Positions 54,381-64,000 of a stretch of DNA of 64,000 nucleotides are shown one piece after another (within the stretch, counting starts at the first letter, position 1; every line of letters starts with the position of its first letter). A program made the position numbers and the translations under genes. The DNA is from Aureispira anguillae (GTDB lineage Bacteria; Bacteroidota; Bacteroidia; Chitinophagales; Saprospiraceae), in contig NZ_AP026867.1 of the NCBI RefSeq assembly GCF_026000115.1, positions 4,762,001-4,826,000 on the forward strand, in the 5' to 3' direction. The notes under the pieces are model-generated. The model was not told the origin of the DNA and did not search any database. It saw only the letters and a list, made by a program, of their open reading frames with translations.

Positions 54381-54845
54381 TTATGCCCCAATTGAATTTT
54401 TGACTTTGTCTTGTTCTACTTGGCGGGTAACGTCATCTTCTGAAATGATAAATTCTTGCTTTTTGATCATTAACTTCCACCAAGTTTTAGTTTTTATCAA
54501 ATTTCCTGCATGTTTTTCAAGACGATAACAAAGTTCAATATTGGGCTCTTCTTTATCATTTATAATCCGACTCAATTTTGTATAATGAATGGCTAAATCT
54601 TTTGCTATTTCACGCCTTGGCTTTTTGAGGATACGAATGTACTCTTCGAGGTATTTTCCAAACGTTTTTTCAAAAGAAAAACCATCCTCTTTTAAATAAT
54701 CCTCTATAAGAAAACGCAAGCGCATGACATCAGCTAAAATTCTATCTTCTTCAGAAGTCTCTTTTAGCTTTTTCATCCGCAAAATGCTAATTTTGTCCTG
54801 CACTTCTTTTGCTTTTTTTTCAGATAGTTCAGCAGGAATCAACAT
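54381..54845 (-). CDS. Helix-turn-helix protein with frameshifted 5' end
   Basis: The annotated frame begins at ATG 54845 (MLIPAELSEKKAKEVQDKIS) and gives 154 residues. LRFLIEDYLK and SFEKTFGKYLEEYI precede an HTH-type region RREIAKDLAIHYTKLSRIINDKEEP, then LCYRLEKHAGNLI. It resembles a Bacteroidota family of HTH proteins sometimes annotated as HigA-like antitoxins. Homologues as I recall them begin further upstream with a KYTxEEI motif. That motif is in frame here (54846-54881) but has no start codon. An ATG at 54910 begins MKYEKIYQALRKN in a different frame. A single -1 slip at the A5 run (54873-54877) would join them. A programmed shift, an indel or a sequencing error are all possible. No toxin gene is adjacent. 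Confidence 0.7.
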   Translation of the reverse strand: MLIPAELSEKKAKEVQDKISILRMKKLKETSEEDRILADVMRLRFLIEDYLKEDGFSFEKTFGKYLEEYIRILKKPRREIAKDLAIHYTKLSRIINDKEEPNIELCYRLEKHAGNLIKTKTWWKLMIKKQEFIISEDDVTRQVEQDKVKNSIGA

Positions 54846-55477: not shown

Positions 55478-57919
55478 ATGAGACAGAACTTACGTTATTT
55501 ACTATGCCTAATAATAGGTATAGGTATCTTGCTACCCACAGCAGATGCACAGCTAGTTAACTATGAAGAAACTTGGCAGGAATTTCTAAAAAACCCCAAG
55601 ACTTCTGCGATTAGTAAATTGACAGAGCCTAGCAAAGATCAAGTGGCCAATTATCTTAAGTATTGCTTGATGTATGCCAACTCTCATTTCTGTGCAGATG
55701 ACTTAACCAATTCTGAGAAAATGATGCGAGAAGTTGCTGCAATTAGCTCAGATGCGCATGCCAAGATTCCTGGTTTTGCAGAAAAATATGCTGACTTAAA
55801 GGTCAAAATTTCGGCTTATAAAGCTTGTGGAAAACTATGGATTCGCTTTACAGAAGGGGAAGCAGTAGATATTGCTGAATTGGAAAAAGAGGCCGTAAAA
55901 GATGCCAAAAAGGTCTGCGAAAAGGGAACGCTTTGCAAGTATTTCTACATGACTTCTATGCATTATTACTGCCAAGGTGACCTAAAAAAATCTAGAGGGC
56001 ATTTTGAAAATCGGGTTCAAAAATTGGTGGATAAAACGTCTTTTGAGCCTTCTGATGTACAAGGAATGGAGGAACGGGTTAAAATGATGAAAAAACTTTG
56101 GGCTGGAATTGACAAATTAGATCCTGCTTGGGCTAAATTAATTGAGACCGACCAATCTCCTGGTTTTGATACAGAACTGCCTTTGATTGAGTGCTACTCC
56201 ATTCCCAATATGAAGGAATATATCCTAAGAGCAAGCGCTGATCTTTGTACGGTTGGGGATGAAATGTTAAAAAAAATCAAGGCGCTACAAAAAACCAATA
56301 CTCACTCGATTCCTTCTGATGTCGCTGATAAAATCGAATGGTTAGAAAAGGCTGTTACAGAAAACAACAACGGCTTGGCTACCCTAAACAAAGCTTGGAA
56401 AAAATTCTTGCCTGAAAGCAAACCTAGTGGGATCGACTATGGGCATGAATTTGTTTGTGATCGTGCCGCAGAGGTCAAAGCCTATATTATGGATGGCTTC
56501 GCAGATCCTTGTGGAGGTGGCAAAACTGCTTTGGACAAAATTGAGGAAATTAAAAAAGAACACAACCCTTCTTTGGATACTGAAACAATGACTAAACTCA
56601 AGCAACTAAAAGCTAGAGTTAATAAGGAAGCTGAAAATCTAGCAAAACTCAATGAAGCTTGGGAAGATTTTGTACCTGATGATAAAGTAAAAGGTAAATT
56701 AGATTTTGTATTTGAATATTGCGATAAAGAAGCTCAAATCAAGGCCTATGTCATTGATGGTACGGTTAATTTCTGCGAAAAGGGCAAACAGCGTTTGGAG
56801 GATATTGCAGCACTACGGGATAGTGATGCTCCTGAATTAGCCGATGTCGTTCTTAAAAAAATAGACAATCTACAGGCTAAACAAGATGAGGCGGACCAAG
56901 ATTTAGCAGATTTAAATGCCGCTTGGACCTTGTATATAGAAACGGACAACGTCATGAAATGGGAAGAGGGTTACCCATCCAAGGACAGTGGAACGGTTAG
57001 AGATAATATCCGTTTGGTAAAATTCTACTGCGATAAAATTGCTCAAACCAAATCTTGGGTCATAAAAGGGCAATTGGATCCTTGCGAAAAGGGAGAACCT
57101 TATTTGAAAAAAATTGAAAAACTAAAAGCAGATCATAGCCTAAGTTATGATAAAGAATTAGCTTGCCAGATTAGCCGTTTGCGCAACAAAGTTTATCAAT
57201 GTAAATATTGGACTTTGGTGCTTAAAGCTTGGAAAATTACACACGAAGAATGTGAGCGTTTTGGTCCTGCTTCTTCCAAAATTATGTATGAAGACCTAAA
57301 CTCTGAAGAATCGCCTTGTGAAACTAGAGTCTCTTATAAACAACTTGGAAAAATTGGGATTCAATACACGATTACGACTATTCTTTGTCAGAAAATCAAC
57401 TTGGCGCAGATGGGCGATCCTGAGTATTATAAAAAAATTGCTACTTGGGTAAATACAGAAGTATTAACTAAATATTGTAATACCACCAATTGGCGATGCA
57501 AAAAAGATTTCTTCATTTACCTAGAGGGTCATACCGATGGGCATCGATTTAGTGGTGCTACTTATGACAAATCCTTGGATGTCCCAGAAGGAACGCCTTA
57601 TACGCATTTTATTGGCAAACCTAACGGTGCAGGAGCCGATACGCTCCAAAAAGAAACACGTAACATCACTTCTCAATTAAAATCAAATATGGAATTGGGA
57701 ATTGCTAGAGCTTGGACAGTCAAGCAACAATTGGATTTTATGAAGGTTCCGATTACCATTGGCGCTTACGAGCATCCTTCAGATGAAAAGGATAAAGATT
57801 ATCGCCGTATCGAGATCGAACTAAATATTACCAACCTAATGTTGGATTTTTATGAAAAGACCTTAAAAGAGTTGGTAGATGAATCGGGAATTGGGGATCG
57901 TCCTCGATTGGGCTGTTAG
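55478..57919 (+). CDS. Secreted cysteine-repeat protein with OmpA-like C-terminus (paralog 1)
   Basis: I chose ATG 55478 (MRQNLRYLLCLIIGIGILLP) because the paralogs start right before the signal peptide; an ATG at 55460 would add six residues. The 813-residue product has a signal peptide, then six units of about 88 residues. Each unit carries an AW/TW-type aromatic, then a CDK or CDR motif (FEYCDKEAQIKAYVIDG or FVCDRAAEVKAYIMDG), then a second cysteine (NFCEKG or DPCGGG) about 16 residues later, then helical sequence. The last about 230 residues contain an OmpA-like domain (LEGHTDGHRFSG, then ELGIARAWTVKQQLDF, GAYEHPSDEKDKDYRRIEIELN), expanded by an internal loop. Probably periplasmic and peptidoglycan-linked. 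The repeat family is not one I recognise. Confidence 0.82.
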   Translation: MRQNLRYLLCLIIGIGILLPTADAQLVNYEETWQEFLKNPKTSAISKLTEPSKDQVANYLKYCLMYANSHFCADDLTNSEKMMREVAAISSDAHAKIPGFAEKYADLKVKISAYKACGKLWIRFTEGEAVDIAELEKEAVKDAKKVCEKGTLCKYFYMTSMHYYCQGDLKKSRGHFENRVQKLVDKTSFEPSDVQGMEERVKMMKKLWAGIDKLDPAWAKLIETDQSPGFDTELPLIECYSIPNMKEYILRASADLCTVGDEMLKKIKALQKTNTHSIPSDVADKIEWLEKAVTENNNGLATLNKAWKKFLPESKPSGIDYGHEFVCDRAAEVKAYIMDGFADPCGGGKTALDKIEEIKKEHNPSLDTETMTKLKQLKARVNKEAENLAKLNEAWEDFVPDDKVKGKLDFVFEYCDKEAQIKAYVIDGTVNFCEKGKQRLEDIAALRDSDAPELADVVLKKIDNLQAKQDEADQDLADLNAAWTLYIETDNVMKWEEGYPSKDSGTVRDNIRLVKFYCDKIAQTKSWVIKGQLDPCEKGEPYLKKIEKLKADHSLSYDKELACQISRLRNKVYQCKYWTLVLKAWKITHEECERFGPASSKIMYEDLNSEESPCETRVSYKQLGKIGIQYTITTILCQKINLAQMGDPEYYKKIATWVNTEVLTKYCNTTNWRCKKDFFIYLEGHTDGHRFSGATYDKSLDVPEGTPYTHFIGKPNGAGADTLQKETRNITSQLKSNMELGIARAWTVKQQLDFMKVPITIGAYEHPSDEKDKDYRRIEIELNITNLMLDFYEKTLKELVDESGIGDRPRLGC

Positions 57920-58312
57920 CTTTAATTCTTCCCTTTTTACACAATAATACTAAGAACGTTCATGTTAACTTTATGTTGATGTGGACGTTCTGCATTTGGA
58001 TTCATAATCATTTACTTGGAGACAAATTTAAGTCCTAGCGTTTGGAAACAATTGCCCAACTCTTCTTTTTTTGGGTTGGTTATTGCATAGAGTTAAGAAG
58101 TATCGTTCCTTGACAAGTCGTGTACACTATTAAACAACCCAATCCTCTTATTACTACTTTTGTTAAAAATTACAGGTAGTAAATCGTTAAAGCTTACCCT
58201 TTGTTATAGTTCGTCACACGATTTATCAAAGAACTAGAAGTATTATTAGACAACTTCGTTAATTACCTTAATTTTACAACACACTAGACTATTTTACAAT
58301 ACTATTATAACT
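57920..58312. other. Intergenic region between paralogs 1 and 2
   Basis: Apart from the long hairpin at 57953-57991, nothing is supported here. The size suggests that paralog 2 has its own promoter, but no perfect TAnnTTTG box was found. Confidence 0.5.
57953..57991 (+). terminator. Long wobble-rich RNA hairpin after paralog 1
   Basis: As plus-strand RNA, 57953-57969 pairs with 57975-57991 over 17 positions including five G-U pairs, around the loop TTTAT. It starts 34 bases after the stop. It is not followed by a T tract, so its terminator role is uncertain. Confidence 0.55.
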
Positions 58313-60541
58313 ATGAACTTGAACAAACATTTTTTATTCTATCTCTGCTTGGGTTTTGCTTTTTTGATGCCTAGTATTGTACAGGCGCAACTCGTCAATA
58401 TGGAAGAAACTTGGCAAGAGTTTTTGAGCAATAAAAAAACAGCCAATATTTCTGAGTTAAGAAAGCCTGAAAAATCACAACCTGCCAACTACATCAAGTA
58501 TTCGTTAATCTATGCCAACACTTATTTTTGTGGTGATAACATAGAGGGTGCAGATGAAATGATGCGAGAAATTGAATCCATGGGCAAAACGGTCTGGGAT
58601 AGAGTTCCTGGCTTTGAAGAACGTTATCTTGGCTTAAAAGAAAACATCAAGGCTTATAAGGCTTTGGACCCTGTTTGGGAAAAATTCTTGAACAATAAAA
58701 CCAGTGTTTCTAAGGAGGATGTAGAAGCCTTTCCCGAAGCCAAAAAGATTTGTGAACGTGGTACTTTGTGCAAGTATTTTTACATGATTTCACACGATTA
58801 TTTTTGCAACAAAAACTTGGACAAAGCTAGAGAAGTTTTTGATAGTCGCATTCGAAAATTAGTAGCTACAACCTTCAATCCTAAAGATATAGAAGGCTTG
58901 GGGGATGAAGTGGAGCGCATGACTCAATTTTGGGATGGAATGGATGAATTAACACCTGCTTGGGAAGCCTATATGGAAACCGACATTTCGCCAGGAATGG
59001 ATGCAGAATTACCCATTATTGGTTGTTATGTGATTCCTAATATGAAGGCTTGTATCCTAAAAGCTACCTATGACATTTGTGGGGTTGGCGAAAAAATGTT
59101 GGCAAAATTAAAAGACCTTCAGGATAAGAGCAATGATCCAATCCCTTCTGAAATCATTGAAAAAATGGAATTGATAGAAGAAGAAGTACGGGTTATTAAA
59201 AAGGACTTGGCGGTTTTGAATACCTACTGGAAAAAATTCACCAAAACGAATAAATTACCAACTGGGGTAACCTACAAATATGTATTTGCTTGTGATCGAG
59301 AAGCAGAGGTCAAAGCTTATTTAATGGATGGCTTAATTGACCCTTGTATGAATGGAGCCAAAGCTTTGGAAAATATTTCTAAAGTACGAAAAACACACAA
59401 ACCTGCCCTAGGAAAAGTGACCTTAGAAAAATTAAAAGAGCTAAAAGCTTTGGTCAAAGTTGAAAGCGGCGATGTTACCATTTTAAATGAGGCATGGGAG
59501 GATTTCTTGCCTGATAATAAGTTATCAGACAGCTATGATTTGTCGTTCCAATATTGTGATAAACTCGCAGAAATTAAAGCCTTTATTATTGATGGAACAG
59601 TTAATATCTGTGAAAAAGGAGAACAACGTCTGGACGACATTGAAAATGTACTGGACGAAAATGAGGTGGAAGTAGATGCCGAAACACAACGTAAATTGGA
59701 TGCGTTGCAAGAACAATCTGGAAAACTGTCTGCTAAACAAAATGTTCTGAACAAAGCTTGGGATTTTCTATTGGCTAATAATAAGGTCAGTGACGACTTC
59801 GAATACGATTATGAGTTTAGTTGCGATAGAGAATTGGAAGTTAAAGCTTATTTATTGGATGGTTATACCAATCCTTGTTTGAGCGGCAAATATGGCTTGG
59901 CAGAAGTGGAAAAGGTCATGGCTAAATACAATCCTAAATTGAGCGATGAAACCTTGGCGCAAATCAAAAAATTAAAGAGTCGATTGGCAAATGAAGGGGG
60001 CAATGTCAAGACACTAACCAAAGCTTGGGAAGATTTTGTGCCAGATAATAAGCTATCGGGCGAGATTAATTTTATATTTGACTATTGTGATAAAATTGCA
60101 GAATGCCGTGCTTATATTATTGATGGCACTATCAATTTCTGTGCCCGTGGCAAAGAGCGTCTAGAAGATATTTATCAATTGCAAGAAGATTATCTCTTGA
60201 CCTTAGATCAAACGATGGAAGATAAATTGGAAACCTTGCACAAGATGGTTGAACAAGGCAAACCTAGTGTCGAAGAACTGGACAAAGCTTGGGAAATTTG
60301 TATTAGCATGGATCACTTTGTAAAAGTCGATCGCAGCAAAATTCAATTGGCGGATGTGTATTGCGATCCTATTTCTAAAACAAAGGCTTGGGTCATGAAA
60401 GGGCTTCTAAATCCTTGTAAAGAAGGTGATGGTTATCTGTCTAAAATTGACTATCTAAAACAAAAAGAGGCTGTGGTTTATGGCGAAGAGTTGGATTATC
60501 AAGTGGAGTTGCTGCGAGTGAATGTAGGTAAGTGCAAGTAG
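58313..60541 (+). CDS. Secreted cysteine-repeat protein lacking OmpA domain (paralog 2)
   Basis: The 742-residue product starts MNLNKHFLFYLCLGFAFLMP and is cleaved near VQAQ-LVNMEETWQEFL. It contains eight repeat units with alternating CDR (FACDREAEVKAYLMDG, FSCDRELEVKAYLLDG) and CDK (FQYCDKLAEIKAFIIDG, FDYCDKIAECRAYIIDG) forms, so two CDR-CDK pairs where paralog 1 has one. The final unit ends at VNVGKCK, and the OmpA-like domain is absent. The stop is real in this sequence, since the next 26 bases begin a hairpin. It may be a soluble partner of the OmpA-bearing paralogs. Recent duplication within the array is inferred from the shared pattern. Confidence 0.82.
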   Translation: MNLNKHFLFYLCLGFAFLMPSIVQAQLVNMEETWQEFLSNKKTANISELRKPEKSQPANYIKYSLIYANTYFCGDNIEGADEMMREIESMGKTVWDRVPGFEERYLGLKENIKAYKALDPVWEKFLNNKTSVSKEDVEAFPEAKKICERGTLCKYFYMISHDYFCNKNLDKAREVFDSRIRKLVATTFNPKDIEGLGDEVERMTQFWDGMDELTPAWEAYMETDISPGMDAELPIIGCYVIPNMKACILKATYDICGVGEKMLAKLKDLQDKSNDPIPSEIIEKMELIEEEVRVIKKDLAVLNTYWKKFTKTNKLPTGVTYKYVFACDREAEVKAYLMDGLIDPCMNGAKALENISKVRKTHKPALGKVTLEKLKELKALVKVESGDVTILNEAWEDFLPDNKLSDSYDLSFQYCDKLAEIKAFIIDGTVNICEKGEQRLDDIENVLDENEVEVDAETQRKLDALQEQSGKLSAKQNVLNKAWDFLLANNKVSDDFEYDYEFSCDRELEVKAYLLDGYTNPCLSGKYGLAEVEKVMAKYNPKLSDETLAQIKKLKSRLANEGGNVKTLTKAWEDFVPDNKLSGEINFIFDYCDKIAECRAYIIDGTINFCARGKERLEDIYQLQEDYLLTLDQTMEDKLETLHKMVEQGKPSVEELDKAWEICISMDHFVKVDRSKIQLADVYCDPISKTKAWVMKGLLNPCKEGDGYLSKIDYLKQKEAVVYGEELDYQVELLRVNVGKCK

Positions 60542-60566
60542 ATTTTTTGATTTGAACATTATTGGG

Positions 60567-60599
60567 TTTGAAGATGAGCCAATGCTGCTCATCTTCAAA
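60567..60599 (+). terminator. Hairpin between paralogs 2 and 3
   Basis: TTTGAAGATGAGC (60567-60579) pairs perfectly with GCTCATCTTCAAA (60587-60599) around CAATGCT. It starts 26 bases after the stop of paralog 2 and ends 30 bases before the start of paralog 3. Without a T tract, it may attenuate rather than terminate. Confidence 0.6.
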
Positions 60600-60629
60600 T
60601 TGAATACTATTAATAAATACGATAAAACT

Positions 60630-63593
60630 ATGAATGTAAATCGACCTTTCTCATTCCTATTCCTTTTGGGAGTAACCTTATTGTTACCCCATTTTGCCCA
60701 AGCACAATTGGTCAATATGGAAGAAACATGGCGAGAGTTTTTGGGCAATCAAAAGACCTCTAATGTCTCCAAATTAGTAAAGCCTGAAAAATCACAGCCC
60801 GCCAACTATATTAAGTATTGTCTGATGTATGCCAACTCTTATTTTTGTGCCGATAATATTCCAAGTGCCGATAAGATGATGCGAGAAATTACCACCATCA
60901 ATCCAGAGGTACAAGCTAAGGTTCCAGGTTTTAAGGAACGCTATGAAGGAATGAAGGTCAAAATCAAAGCGTATAAAGATTTGGTTCCTGTATGGCAACG
61001 TTTCTTAGCAGATAAAGGTAGCATAACTAGAAAGGATATTGCTGCTGTTCCTGAAGCAAAAAAGGTCTGTGAAAAAGGAACGTTGTGCAAGTTCTTTTAT
61101 ATGACAGCACATGCTTATTATTGTGAGGCTAACTTAGAAGATGCTCGGCATCATTTTGAAAATCGAGTGCTTAAGCTTGCCAAAACAAGTTTTGATCCTA
61201 AAAATGTAGCTGGTCTAAATGAAGAAATTGAAATGATGAAACTTGTTTGGGCTGGGATTGATGAATTAACTCCTGTTTGGTCCAAATTTATTGAAACGGA
61301 TCAATCTCCTGGTTTTGAGACAGAAATTCCTGTTATTGCATGTTATACGGTTCCTAATATAAAAGTTTGTTTACTGAGAGCTGCTGCTGATTTTTGTGGT
61401 ACAGGTGCTGAAATGTTAGAAAAAATCAAAGCCTTACAAGCCAGTATGTCTCACGATGTTCCAGGTGATGTCGCCGATAAAATTGCATGGTTAGAGGCTG
61501 CGGTTAATAAGAGCAATAAAGAGTTAGCAAATCTCAATAACATTTGGGATAAATTTACCCCAAAAGAGCAATTACCCAATGGTGCTACCTATGCGCACAT
61601 TTTTGTTTGTGATCGTTTGGCGGAAGTAAAAGCTTATTTGATGGATGGTTTAAGCAATCCTTGTACAGCAGGGGAAGCTGCCCTAGACAGCATTGCTAGA
61701 ATTCGCAAAGACCATAAACCCAGCTTAGACGATGTTTGTACTTCTAAATTAAAAAAACTAAAAAGCTTGGTCAATAATGAAGCCGCAGCTATTGCTAAAC
61801 TAAATAAAGCTTGGGAAGATTTTTTGCCTGACCATAAACTATCTAATCCTGCTGATTTTGGCTTTGAATATTGTGATAAAACGGCTTTAACAAAAGCCTA
61901 TACTATGGATGGCATTCTGAATATTTGCGATCGTGGTCAACAACGTTTGGACGATATTGAAACGGTTCGTGCAGAATACACCCCAAGCTTAGATGCTAAA
62001 ACTACTGAAAAAATTGACTTTCTCCAGAAAGAAGTGGAGCGTCTCAACCAAGAGGCCGCAGATTTAAAGAAGGCTTGGCAATATTTGGTAGACAATGACA
62101 AAGTAAACACTGCCCTTCAATACAAACATGAATTTATTTGTGATCGAGAGGCAGAAGTACAGTCTTATCTTTTAGATGGTTTAACCGATCCTTGTGCTAG
62201 TGGAAAAGATGCTTTGGCTGAAATTGAAAAAGTCATGAGTGCACATAATCCAACGCTAAGTTCTACGACCTTAGCACAGCTTAATAAATTAAAAAATAGC
62301 GTTAAAAACGAAACCAATAATTTGGCAGCACTCAACAAAACTTGGAAAGACTTTGTGCCTGATGATAAATTGTCTGCTCCTTTGGATATTGCCTTTGAAT
62401 ATTGCGATAAAATTGCGCAAATTCGTGCTTATATCATTGATGGTACCGTCAATTTTTGTGCTCAATCGGAACAACGCCTAGCAGATGCCCTTGAGTTAAA
62501 AACAAGCTTTTCTTTGTCATTGGATGCTACTACGCAAAGCAAATTGGATCAGTTGGACAAAAAGGTAAAACAAGCCGCAAAAGATTTGGAAGATTTGGGA
62601 GCAGCTTGGACGCTTTATACGCAAACAGATACCCTCACGTCTTGGCCAGAGGGCTATCCTGATCCTGATACCCTTGTTCGTGATCAAATTCGTTTGGTGG
62701 ATTTTTATTGTGACAAAATTGCGCAAACCAAATCTTGGGCCATCAAAGGCTTGTTGGACCCTTGCGAAAAAGGAGATGCTTACCTCGCCAAAATTAATGC
62801 CCTAAAAACCAAACATGGGCTTTCTTATGACAACGACTTAGCTTGTCAAGTACATCGCCTAAAAGGCAAAGTTTACCAATGTAAGTACTGGACTTTAGTT
62901 CGTGAAGCTCGACGAGTAACGCATCTGGAACGTGAAACATTTGGTCCTAAATCTGCTCAGATCATGTATGGCGAGCTCAATTCGGACAAACAGCCTTGTG
63001 AAACGACGGTTGTTTATGAACCATTGGGCTATATTGGGGTGCGTTATACCGTTGCTCCTCACCTTTGTCAAAAAACCAATTTGGCTAAAATGGGAGATCC
63101 CGAATATTACAAAAAAATTGCGTCTTGGGTAGACGATGAAGTATTGAGTAAATACTGTGAATCGAATATGCGTTGCAAAGAGGATTTCTTTATTTATTTG
63201 GAAGGACATACGGATGGCTATCGTTTTTCGGGGCGCAAATACGATCAATCTTTAGACATTCCTCAAGGAACTCCTTATACGCATTTTTTGGGTGATAAAG
63301 ATGGAACGGTTGATACGTTACAAAAAGAAACTCGACATATTACACGAGAGCTAAAATCAAATATGGAATTGGGAATTGCTCGTGCTTGGACAGTCAAAGC
63401 TCAGTTGGATTTTATGAATGTTCCCATTACAATTGGGGCTTATGAACACCCTGAGACTGAAAAAGGGGGAGAATTCCGAAAAATTGATATTGAATTAAAT
63501 ATTACTAATTTGCTGCTTGATTTTTATGAAAAAACACTCAATCGTTTGGTCAAAGAGTCGGGCATTGGAAAACGACCAGCTAGAGGCTGCTAA
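60630..63593 (+). CDS. Secreted cysteine-repeat protein with OmpA-like C-terminus (paralog 3)
   Basis: I start at ATG 60630 (MNVNRPFSFLFLLGVTLLLP), which is directly before a signal peptide; the longer frame from 60552 would put 26 charged residues ahead of it and run through the hairpin. The 987-residue product has eight cysteine-repeat units, again with two CDR-CDK pairs (FVCDRLAEVKAYLMDG, FEYCDKTALTKAYTMDG, FICDREAEVQSYLLDG, FEYCDKIAQIRAYIIDG). The C-terminal OmpA-like part is very close to that of paralog 1 (LEGHTDGYRFSGRKYDQSL, ELGIARAWTVKAQLDF, GAYEHPETEKGGEFRKIDIE). A terminator follows. Confidence 0.85.
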   Translation: MNVNRPFSFLFLLGVTLLLPHFAQAQLVNMEETWREFLGNQKTSNVSKLVKPEKSQPANYIKYCLMYANSYFCADNIPSADKMMREITTINPEVQAKVPGFKERYEGMKVKIKAYKDLVPVWQRFLADKGSITRKDIAAVPEAKKVCEKGTLCKFFYMTAHAYYCEANLEDARHHFENRVLKLAKTSFDPKNVAGLNEEIEMMKLVWAGIDELTPVWSKFIETDQSPGFETEIPVIACYTVPNIKVCLLRAAADFCGTGAEMLEKIKALQASMSHDVPGDVADKIAWLEAAVNKSNKELANLNNIWDKFTPKEQLPNGATYAHIFVCDRLAEVKAYLMDGLSNPCTAGEAALDSIARIRKDHKPSLDDVCTSKLKKLKSLVNNEAAAIAKLNKAWEDFLPDHKLSNPADFGFEYCDKTALTKAYTMDGILNICDRGQQRLDDIETVRAEYTPSLDAKTTEKIDFLQKEVERLNQEAADLKKAWQYLVDNDKVNTALQYKHEFICDREAEVQSYLLDGLTDPCASGKDALAEIEKVMSAHNPTLSSTTLAQLNKLKNSVKNETNNLAALNKTWKDFVPDDKLSAPLDIAFEYCDKIAQIRAYIIDGTVNFCAQSEQRLADALELKTSFSLSLDATTQSKLDQLDKKVKQAAKDLEDLGAAWTLYTQTDTLTSWPEGYPDPDTLVRDQIRLVDFYCDKIAQTKSWAIKGLLDPCEKGDAYLAKINALKTKHGLSYDNDLACQVHRLKGKVYQCKYWTLVREARRVTHLERETFGPKSAQIMYGELNSDKQPCETTVVYEPLGYIGVRYTVAPHLCQKTNLAKMGDPEYYKKIASWVDDEVLSKYCESNMRCKEDFFIYLEGHTDGYRFSGRKYDQSLDIPQGTPYTHFLGDKDGTVDTLQKETRHITRELKSNMELGIARAWTVKAQLDFMNVPITIGAYEHPETEKGGEFRKIDIELNITNLLLDFYEKTLNRLVKESGIGKRPARGC

Positions 63594-63705: not shown

Positions 63706-64000
63706 ATGAAGTCAATTCTTATCGCCACTCTCCTACTCCTTATTTCATTACAATTTGCTTTAGGTCAGGGCTTAAAAATAGCTACCTTCAATTGTGAATT
63801 CCTAGTCAAAAGAAAAGTACATATGAAATATGGGCTGCCTTTTAACATGAAATATGCCTCAAAAGCTGCTAAACAAGAATGGCAAGACGATCGTTTTAGA
63901 CAAAAAAAGTTTGACGAAGCAACAGAAGCTGTAGCCAAACACCTAAAAACACTCCATGCAGATGTATTGGGATTAACAGAGGTAGGTAATGAAGCAGAAG
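63706..64000 (+). CDS. Endonuclease/exonuclease/phosphatase family protein, truncated by window edge
   Basis: The visible 98 residues begin MKSILIATLLLLISLQFALG, a signal peptide, followed by KIATFNCEFLVKRK. The N of the TFN motif and the later DVLGLTEVGNE are the first two metal-site signatures of the EEP superfamily. The 3' end lies outside the window, so the catalytic histidine cannot be checked. It is likely a secreted metal-dependent phosphodiesterase or nuclease. Confidence 0.75.
   Translation, partial: MKSILIATLLLLISLQFALGQGLKIATFNCEFLVKRKVHMKYGLPFNMKYASKAAKQEWQDDRFRQKKFDEATEAVAKHLKTLHADVLGLTEVGNEAE

Follow-up and report, generated by a model that had tools for sequence, protein, structure and literature searches.

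A family of two-cysteine repeat proteins in Aureispira anguillae, predicted to form alpha-solenoids and extended by a two-unit block

In the Hcp proteins, successive repeats of an alpha-solenoid are joined by disulfides, each running from the end of one repeat to the beginning of the following one, as described in PMC3851747. Alpha-helical repeats are also described in CagY of Helicobacter pylori, where two motif types with regular cysteines change in length by in-frame duplication or deletion (PMC2581425). PG1058 of Porphyromonas gingivalis is presented in PMC5053529 as a periplasmic protein with a TPR N terminus and an OmpA_C-like, putatively wall-binding C terminus; that account lists three TPRs, a CRD, and a beta-propeller among its parts and places its anchor on the inner leaflet of the outer membrane. 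In OmpA of A. baumannii, diaminopimelate is reported to be bound by Asp271 and Arg286 (PMC5974059). The locus described here, from Aureispira anguillae, resembles each of these systems in part. It lies in a stretch of 64,000 nucleotides (NZ_AP026867.1, positions 4,762,001 to 4,826,000, forward strand), referred to as the window, and all positions are those of the window unless another contig or locus is named. The array at 55478-63593 consists of three complete genes, P1, P2, and P3, arranged head to tail:

55478..57919, plus strand: P1, 813 aa; signal-peptide-like N terminus, six units, OmpA/MotB-like C-terminal domain
55565..56386, plus strand: P1 units u0-u2, the N-terminal three (u0 without the first repeat cysteine)
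56387..56914, plus strand: P1 two-unit block in single copy, u3 (CDR) and u4 (CDK)
56915..57205, plus strand: P1 terminal unit u5, with extra cysteines +27 and +39 past its second cysteine
57206..57916, plus strand: P1 C-terminal region; remainder of the long helix, then a mixed alpha/beta OmpA/MotB-like domain
58313..60541, plus strand: P2, 742 aa; signal-peptide-like N terminus, eight units, without the OmpA-like C-terminal domain
59219..60280, plus strand: P2 units u3-u6, two copies of the CDR-CDK block
60281..60538, plus strand: P2 terminal unit u7 (+39 cysteine kept, without the +27 cysteine)
60630..63593, plus strand: P3, 987 aa; signal-peptide-like N terminus, eight units, OmpA/MotB-like C-terminal domain
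61536..62597, plus strand: P3 units u3-u6, two copies of the CDR-CDK block
62601..62885, plus strand: P3 terminal unit u7
62886..63590, plus strand: P3 C-terminal region, OmpA/MotB-like by homology to P1

The longest ORF of P1 opens 18 bases upstream of 55478, and a start equivalent to 55478 was present in all six other Aureispira P1 orthologs found. The P3 frame opens with TTG at 60552; the other Aureispira P3 orthologs found (n = 5) comprise four of 987 aa and one of 985 aa. A candidate promoter motif, TAnnTTTG, was dropped, having one match within 300 bases upstream (before P2) and none with a correctly spaced TTG.

The original prediction was of a repeat of about 88 residues with two cysteines, in six, eight, and eight units. 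These counts are right for P1, P2, and P3, and the repeat stands far above chance. Built from the six units of P1 alone, a unit profile detected eight repeats in each of the other two proteins, at 38.2-65.5 bits in P2 and at 40.5-71.2 bits in P3, while the best single domain in 2000 shuffled versions of P2/P3 scored 7.8 bits (1668 gave any score). Each unit runs from a W..F step through a loop, a cysteine, helix A, the second cysteine, and helix B to a long helix C, the helices being predicted. The second cysteine, thought to follow about 16 residues later, is spaced 18 positions from the first in P1, P2, and P3. At the DNA level, copies recur every 531 nt, which equals 177 residues or two units.

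Comparison with domain libraries did not place the unit in any named family. No match reached the curated Pfam or NCBIfam cut-offs, the unit corresponded to no named family in the libraries searched, and PDB sequence searches gave nothing convincing (best E 1.3 for P3 and 0.17 for the unit profile; no match for the family profile). Sel1 had no Pfam match in the three proteins at E up to 10, and PD40, CRD, and TPR had none above the Pfam cut-off. Several weaker matches were rejected and are taken as chance or as an effect of helical repetitive composition: a B3 DNA-binding domain (Pfam) in P2 (E 2.1e-6, 28 bits, under the cut-off of 30.1), PHM7_cyt and FBF1 (Pfam; under cut-off or misleading) in P3, alpha-xenorhabdolysin subunit A (NCBIfam; E 1.4e-6, 27.8 bits against a cut-off of 125) in P3, and a PHROG tail tape measure protein, also in P3 (E 7e-4). 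In the literature search, no paper on the repeat family was recognised among the matches listed. By the searches made, the P1-P3 family is a new sequence family with an architecture of a known kind.

Restriction to one lineage had been named as support for a new family, and the repeat was seen in one bacterial family only among the genomes sampled. The family profile matched 57 of 348 genomes of the same GTDB family, counting that of the window, and these matches fall in 23 of 112 genera. The family, order, class, phylum, and relative samples overlap; all 10 matches among 298 genomes of the order sample and all 12 among 40 relatives belong to the window's GTDB family, and the single match in each of the class and phylum samples (1/395 each) is the window's own genome. 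With the unit profile alone, the order sample again gave 10/298, all of that family, and the phylum sample 1/213; in the window's genome this profile matched 16 places, all within P1, P2, and P3. Of the named homologous loci (n = 7; 48-82% identity), five belong to Aureispira sp. CCB-QB1 and Aureispira MAGs together and two to Saprospiraceae MAGs. Among viral contigs, 70 stretches fitted a pattern and none was confirmed, and plasmids gave no match to P1.

All eight other Aureispira genomes sampled matched. The nine Aureispira genomes carry three intact genes in six cases, two in G007, and one each in G002 and G005. Genome G005 also has decayed fragments with stop codons (contig C7, 24432-24759) that match the C-terminal part of the family and lie beside an intact seven-unit P2; this is paralog loss within Aureispira.

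The comparison of unit number drew on 46 of the 57 matching genomes, which supplied 61 family proteins with a minimum length of 480 residues. Shorter frames were dropped, and 11 matching genomes were left out (ten not retrieved in full, and G149 with only a cut-off frame). Five units occur in 30 proteins, six in 15, seven in three, and eight in 13; a long C-terminal region is present in 17/30, 15/15, 0/3, and 8/13 of these, respectively. The extra units of P2 and P3 are one CDR-CDK block, as the 531-nt recurrence, the unit tree, and the block identities indicate, which bears out the proposal that expansion occurs by a two-unit block. In the unit tree (FastTree, midpoint rooted, built from short units, u2 onwards, of 14 of the 46 genomes), Aureispira P2 and P3 have their second-block units nested in the u3-type and u4-type clades. 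The second-block copies of P2 and P3 mostly cluster together, which suggests that the block was duplicated before P2 and P3 split.

In G002 and G044, units of the two blocks pair with each other. Sister units are u3/u5 (0.916) and u4/u6 (0.993) in G002, and u3/u5 (0.992) and u4/u6 (0.894) in G044. Between the two blocks of G044, identity is 86% at the protein level and 87% at the DNA level, the latter ungapped over 528 nt, while in 15 of 16 two-block proteins the identity between blocks is 29-59%. The u5 of P3 in G004 clusters with its own u3 (0.713), contrary to the second-block grouping, and in G002 the pairs may have arisen when gene conversion acted on an older duplication. Because of these two cases, the number of independent duplications is given as a range: the corresponding two-unit block appears from the tree to have been copied independently two to three times. 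Compared by description, the CagY repeat region is similar in its helical tandem repeats of two types, its regular cysteines, and its change in length through in-frame gain or loss of copies. It differs in having A and B motifs of 38-39 residues, against 88 for the P1-P3 repeat, and longer arrays, and in being part of a type IV secretion protein (PMC2581425).

AlphaFold2 models were made for P1 and P3 (19 sequences; mean pLDDT 81.2 and 81.4, pTM 0.46 and 0.38, respectively). Both are predicted all-helical solenoids through the repeats, with three helices per unit, of which A is short and C long. Foldseek listed many alpha-solenoids (TPR, SLR, and HEAT-type), but no match of either model went below E 0.001, and query TM-scores among the matches listed were at most 0.15; the solenoid is accordingly left without an assigned fold. 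A solenoid of this type could be an adaptor of the TPR/SLR kind that binds ligands or proteins, with a specific client held in its groove; rigidity and length would then be secondary, and the paralogs would differ in client. Partial matches of the P1 model included the SLR protein c5321, the TPR protein P58IPK, and Ctr9, which we take to be a TPR protein. Weak TPR matches in N-terminal parts (TPR_MalT, E 0.081; TPR_2, E 0.068; all under the Pfam cut-off) and the divergence of the two blocks in nearly all two-block proteins point the same way. However, neither model had a fold match below E 0.001, HEAT-type and other solenoids were listed as well, and a conserved partner gene was not established. 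We regard the adaptor explanation as unlikely.

The search for a partner covered 20 loci in 18 non-Aureispira genomes, with ORF listings judged by eye, and no gene recurred beside the family gene across several genera. A small basic protein adjoins the family gene in G127 and G257, which belong to one genus. Genes read by us as subtilisin-like proteases lie directly downstream of the single family gene in G236 (L094:5117-6772) and within 5.4 kb of the single family gene in G002 (L040:13241-16635). Inside Aureispira, an endonuclease/exonuclease/phosphatase-like gene follows the array in 8/9 genomes by eye, the window's copy being the one checked with Pfam. In G004 one ORF lies between the family genes and this gene, and in G002 it was not found after the family gene within the stretch examined. 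The window's copy, 3' of the array, encodes a secreted-looking Exo_endo_phos (Pfam) protein and spans 63706-64000 and beyond (L035:12706-13686). Upstream of the array, 54381-54845 on the minus strand encodes a 154-aa protein for which Pfam gave nothing at E up to 0.001. Farther away, type IX secretion-linked genes (Pfam) occupy 3-25381: a 2115-aa SprB-repeat/Ig protein running off the window, an OmpA-PD40 protein, a PorP/SprF protein, a 3586-aa Ig_7 protein with a CHU_C domain, an OmpA protein, and a CHAT-TPR protein.

Cysteines are distributed regularly in the 365 units of the 61 proteins. The first unit has the second repeat cysteine only in 61/61 proteins. Both cysteines are present in 300 of the 304 non-first units (180/180 u1, u2, and complete last units, and 120/124 remaining middle units), and the four exceptions keep the first cysteine only. 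Three of the exceptions are the last unit of seven-unit P2 orthologs, in which the terminal unit is absent and the second cysteine is gone. The fourth is the internal u3 of G128, which has no second cysteine and is followed by a unit that retains its first; this unit fits neither intra-unit nor inter-unit pairing. A further cysteine follows the second cysteine of the complete last unit at +39 in 57 of 58 proteins and at +40 in the 58th. Optional cysteines at u6 column 29 and u7 column 6 occur together in the five eight-unit P2 proteins, that of the window among them, and the pair is in none of the other 56. The three truncated P2 orthologs probably represent one event, and the five P2 proteins with the optional pair probably another.

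It had been suggested that each unit forms one disulfide of its own. The units would then be independent, bead-like modules, each closed by a bond between cysteines 18 apart, in what would otherwise be the same periplasmic scaffold. The presence of both cysteines in almost every non-first unit and their near-constant spacing agree with this arrangement, which nevertheless leaves the lone second cysteine of the first unit and the cysteine at +39 or +40 unexplained. The models also argue against it: the first cysteine lies two residues before helix A (about 14 residues), and helix B begins at the second cysteine or directly after it. The two cysteines of one unit, flanking helix A in an antiparallel hairpin, would then be about a helix length apart. 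A chain that opens with a "second" cysteine and closes with a "first-like" cysteine is what would be expected if unit n bonds unit n+1, not of bonds within a unit. The disulfides probably pair neighbouring units, given this end-of-chain pattern and the predicted helices, and the one-disulfide-per-unit arrangement is probably wrong; bead-like modules seem to us quite improbable.

Pairing between neighbours would resemble that of Helicobacter HcpB and HcpC, which are Sel1-like and stapled between repeats according to PMC3851747, the likeness being drawn from the cysteines at the ends of the P1-P3 chains. Unlike the P1-P3 units of 88 residues and three helices, Sel1-like repeats have 36-38 residues and two helices. 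P1-P3 also differ from Hcp proteins in lacking a Pfam Sel1 match and in the OmpA-like C-terminal domain of two paralogs. The cysteine count of the mature chain is even in only 33 of 61 proteins, so some cysteines must be free, and an even count, considered as evidence for disulfides, was discarded. In the window's genome, DsbB and VKOR gave no match, and the sole DSBA-family match (G000:C1:4253051-4253653, L137) has a CGWC motif and no clear signal peptide by eye.

The C-terminal domain had been described as OmpA-like in two members. P1 and P3 do have a C-terminal domain that P2 lacks, but the resemblance to OmpA is remote and is missed by Pfam. This part of the models is mixed alpha/beta and has the lowest confidence. 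With the P1 domain, Foldseek returned periplasmic domains of MotB, 2zov (probability 0.95, TMt 0.49, E 0.25) and 3s03 (probability 0.80, TMt 0.50, E 0.75); with the P3 model, no MotB or OmpA entry was among the 50 matches listed. PF00691 (OmpA) did not match the domain at E up to 10. The window's genome (C1 and C2) has 53 PF00691 places, and the P1 and P3 domains are not among them. Profile-profile comparison with 14 OmpA-type stretches of the same genome, picked by regular expression from 25 loci, gave a weak match (probability 36.5%, E 3.7e-4). The strict OmpA motif LSx2RAx2Vx3L occurs in 0/40 C-terminal domains and the relaxed form L[SGA]x2RAx2Vx3L in 38/40. The Asp of GHTD is present in 38/40 (Glu in the other two) and the Arg of RAW in 40/40; from the motif, these residues would correspond to Asp271 and Arg286 of OmpA. 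The predicted P1 fold, the Asp and Arg, and the relaxed motif would be shared with OmpA_C-like/MotB domains of PF00691, from which the P1/P3 domain differs in being missed by the Pfam model, in having G or A for the motif S, and in four further conserved cysteines. The resemblance is weak, and we regard a divergent wall-binding domain of OmpA/MotB type as probable.

PG1058, also named PorE, is a parallel in overall layout within the phylum as far as its description goes, with helical repeats, an OmpA_C-like end, and a periplasmic place that P1 and P3 would share. P1-P3 differ from it in having no propeller, CRD, or lipobox, and in being built of a repeat missed by Pfam. Regarding export, the N terminus of each protein is hydrophobic and ends in A-x-A-Q or similar by eye. 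A crude AxA-Q pattern was found in 24 of 61 relatives, and no lipobox-like pattern occurs in the first 45 residues of any of the 61 proteins. A periplasmic scaffold, as first proposed, is plausible.

The proteins might instead have their place outside the cell or on its surface and serve matrix, gliding, or prey capture, for instance, with a C-terminal domain that does not anchor them to the wall. The genus Aureispira is filamentous, moves by gliding, and is described as prey-catching. This lifestyle, the large proteins with type IX secretion-linked domains in the same window, and the suitability of cysteine-rich stapling for an extracellular place all speak for a surface role. Against it, Pfam and NCBIfam scans found no type IX sorting domain in P1-P3, the putative wall-binding Asp and Arg are retained, and the genes are spread over 23 of the 112 genera sampled. 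We consider a surface role very unlikely.

The explanation we prefer, with a probability of about 0.48, is that the proteins are exported periplasmic alpha-solenoids, stapled between neighbouring units, anchored by the C-terminal domain in P1 and P3 or free in P2, and lengthened by the two-unit block. Each 88-residue unit would consist of three helices, A (short), B, and C (long), the last closing in the aromatic W..F step. The cysteine at the start of helix B in unit n would most likely bond the cysteine that immediately precedes helix A in unit n+1, stapling every junction, and the terminal unit would close the chain with its own +39 cysteine. In P1 and P3 the rod would end in the divergent OmpA/MotB-like domain, which retains the putative peptidoglycan-gripping residues; the rod may thus be anchored to the wall, its solenoid surface being open to a partner in the envelope. 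P2 would be the unanchored form, and rod length would shift by gain of a two-unit block. A more elaborate version, which we think unlikely, is that the wall-anchored rod has its length set in steps of two disulfide-linked units. The pair and not the single unit would then be the structural and functional step, separate lineages would have reached eight units by duplicating the corresponding block, and rods of different length, some anchored (P1, P3) and others not (P2), would jointly span or space the envelope.

This analysis delimits a protein family that no searched library recognises and that was seen in only one bacterial family, which includes Aureispira. It also provides a testable hypothesis, junction-by-junction disulfide stapling of a large alpha-solenoid whose length changes in two-unit steps. 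If true, this would add a separate case to the stapling principle of the Hcp proteins, and the family would be a candidate for a length-setting element in the envelope.
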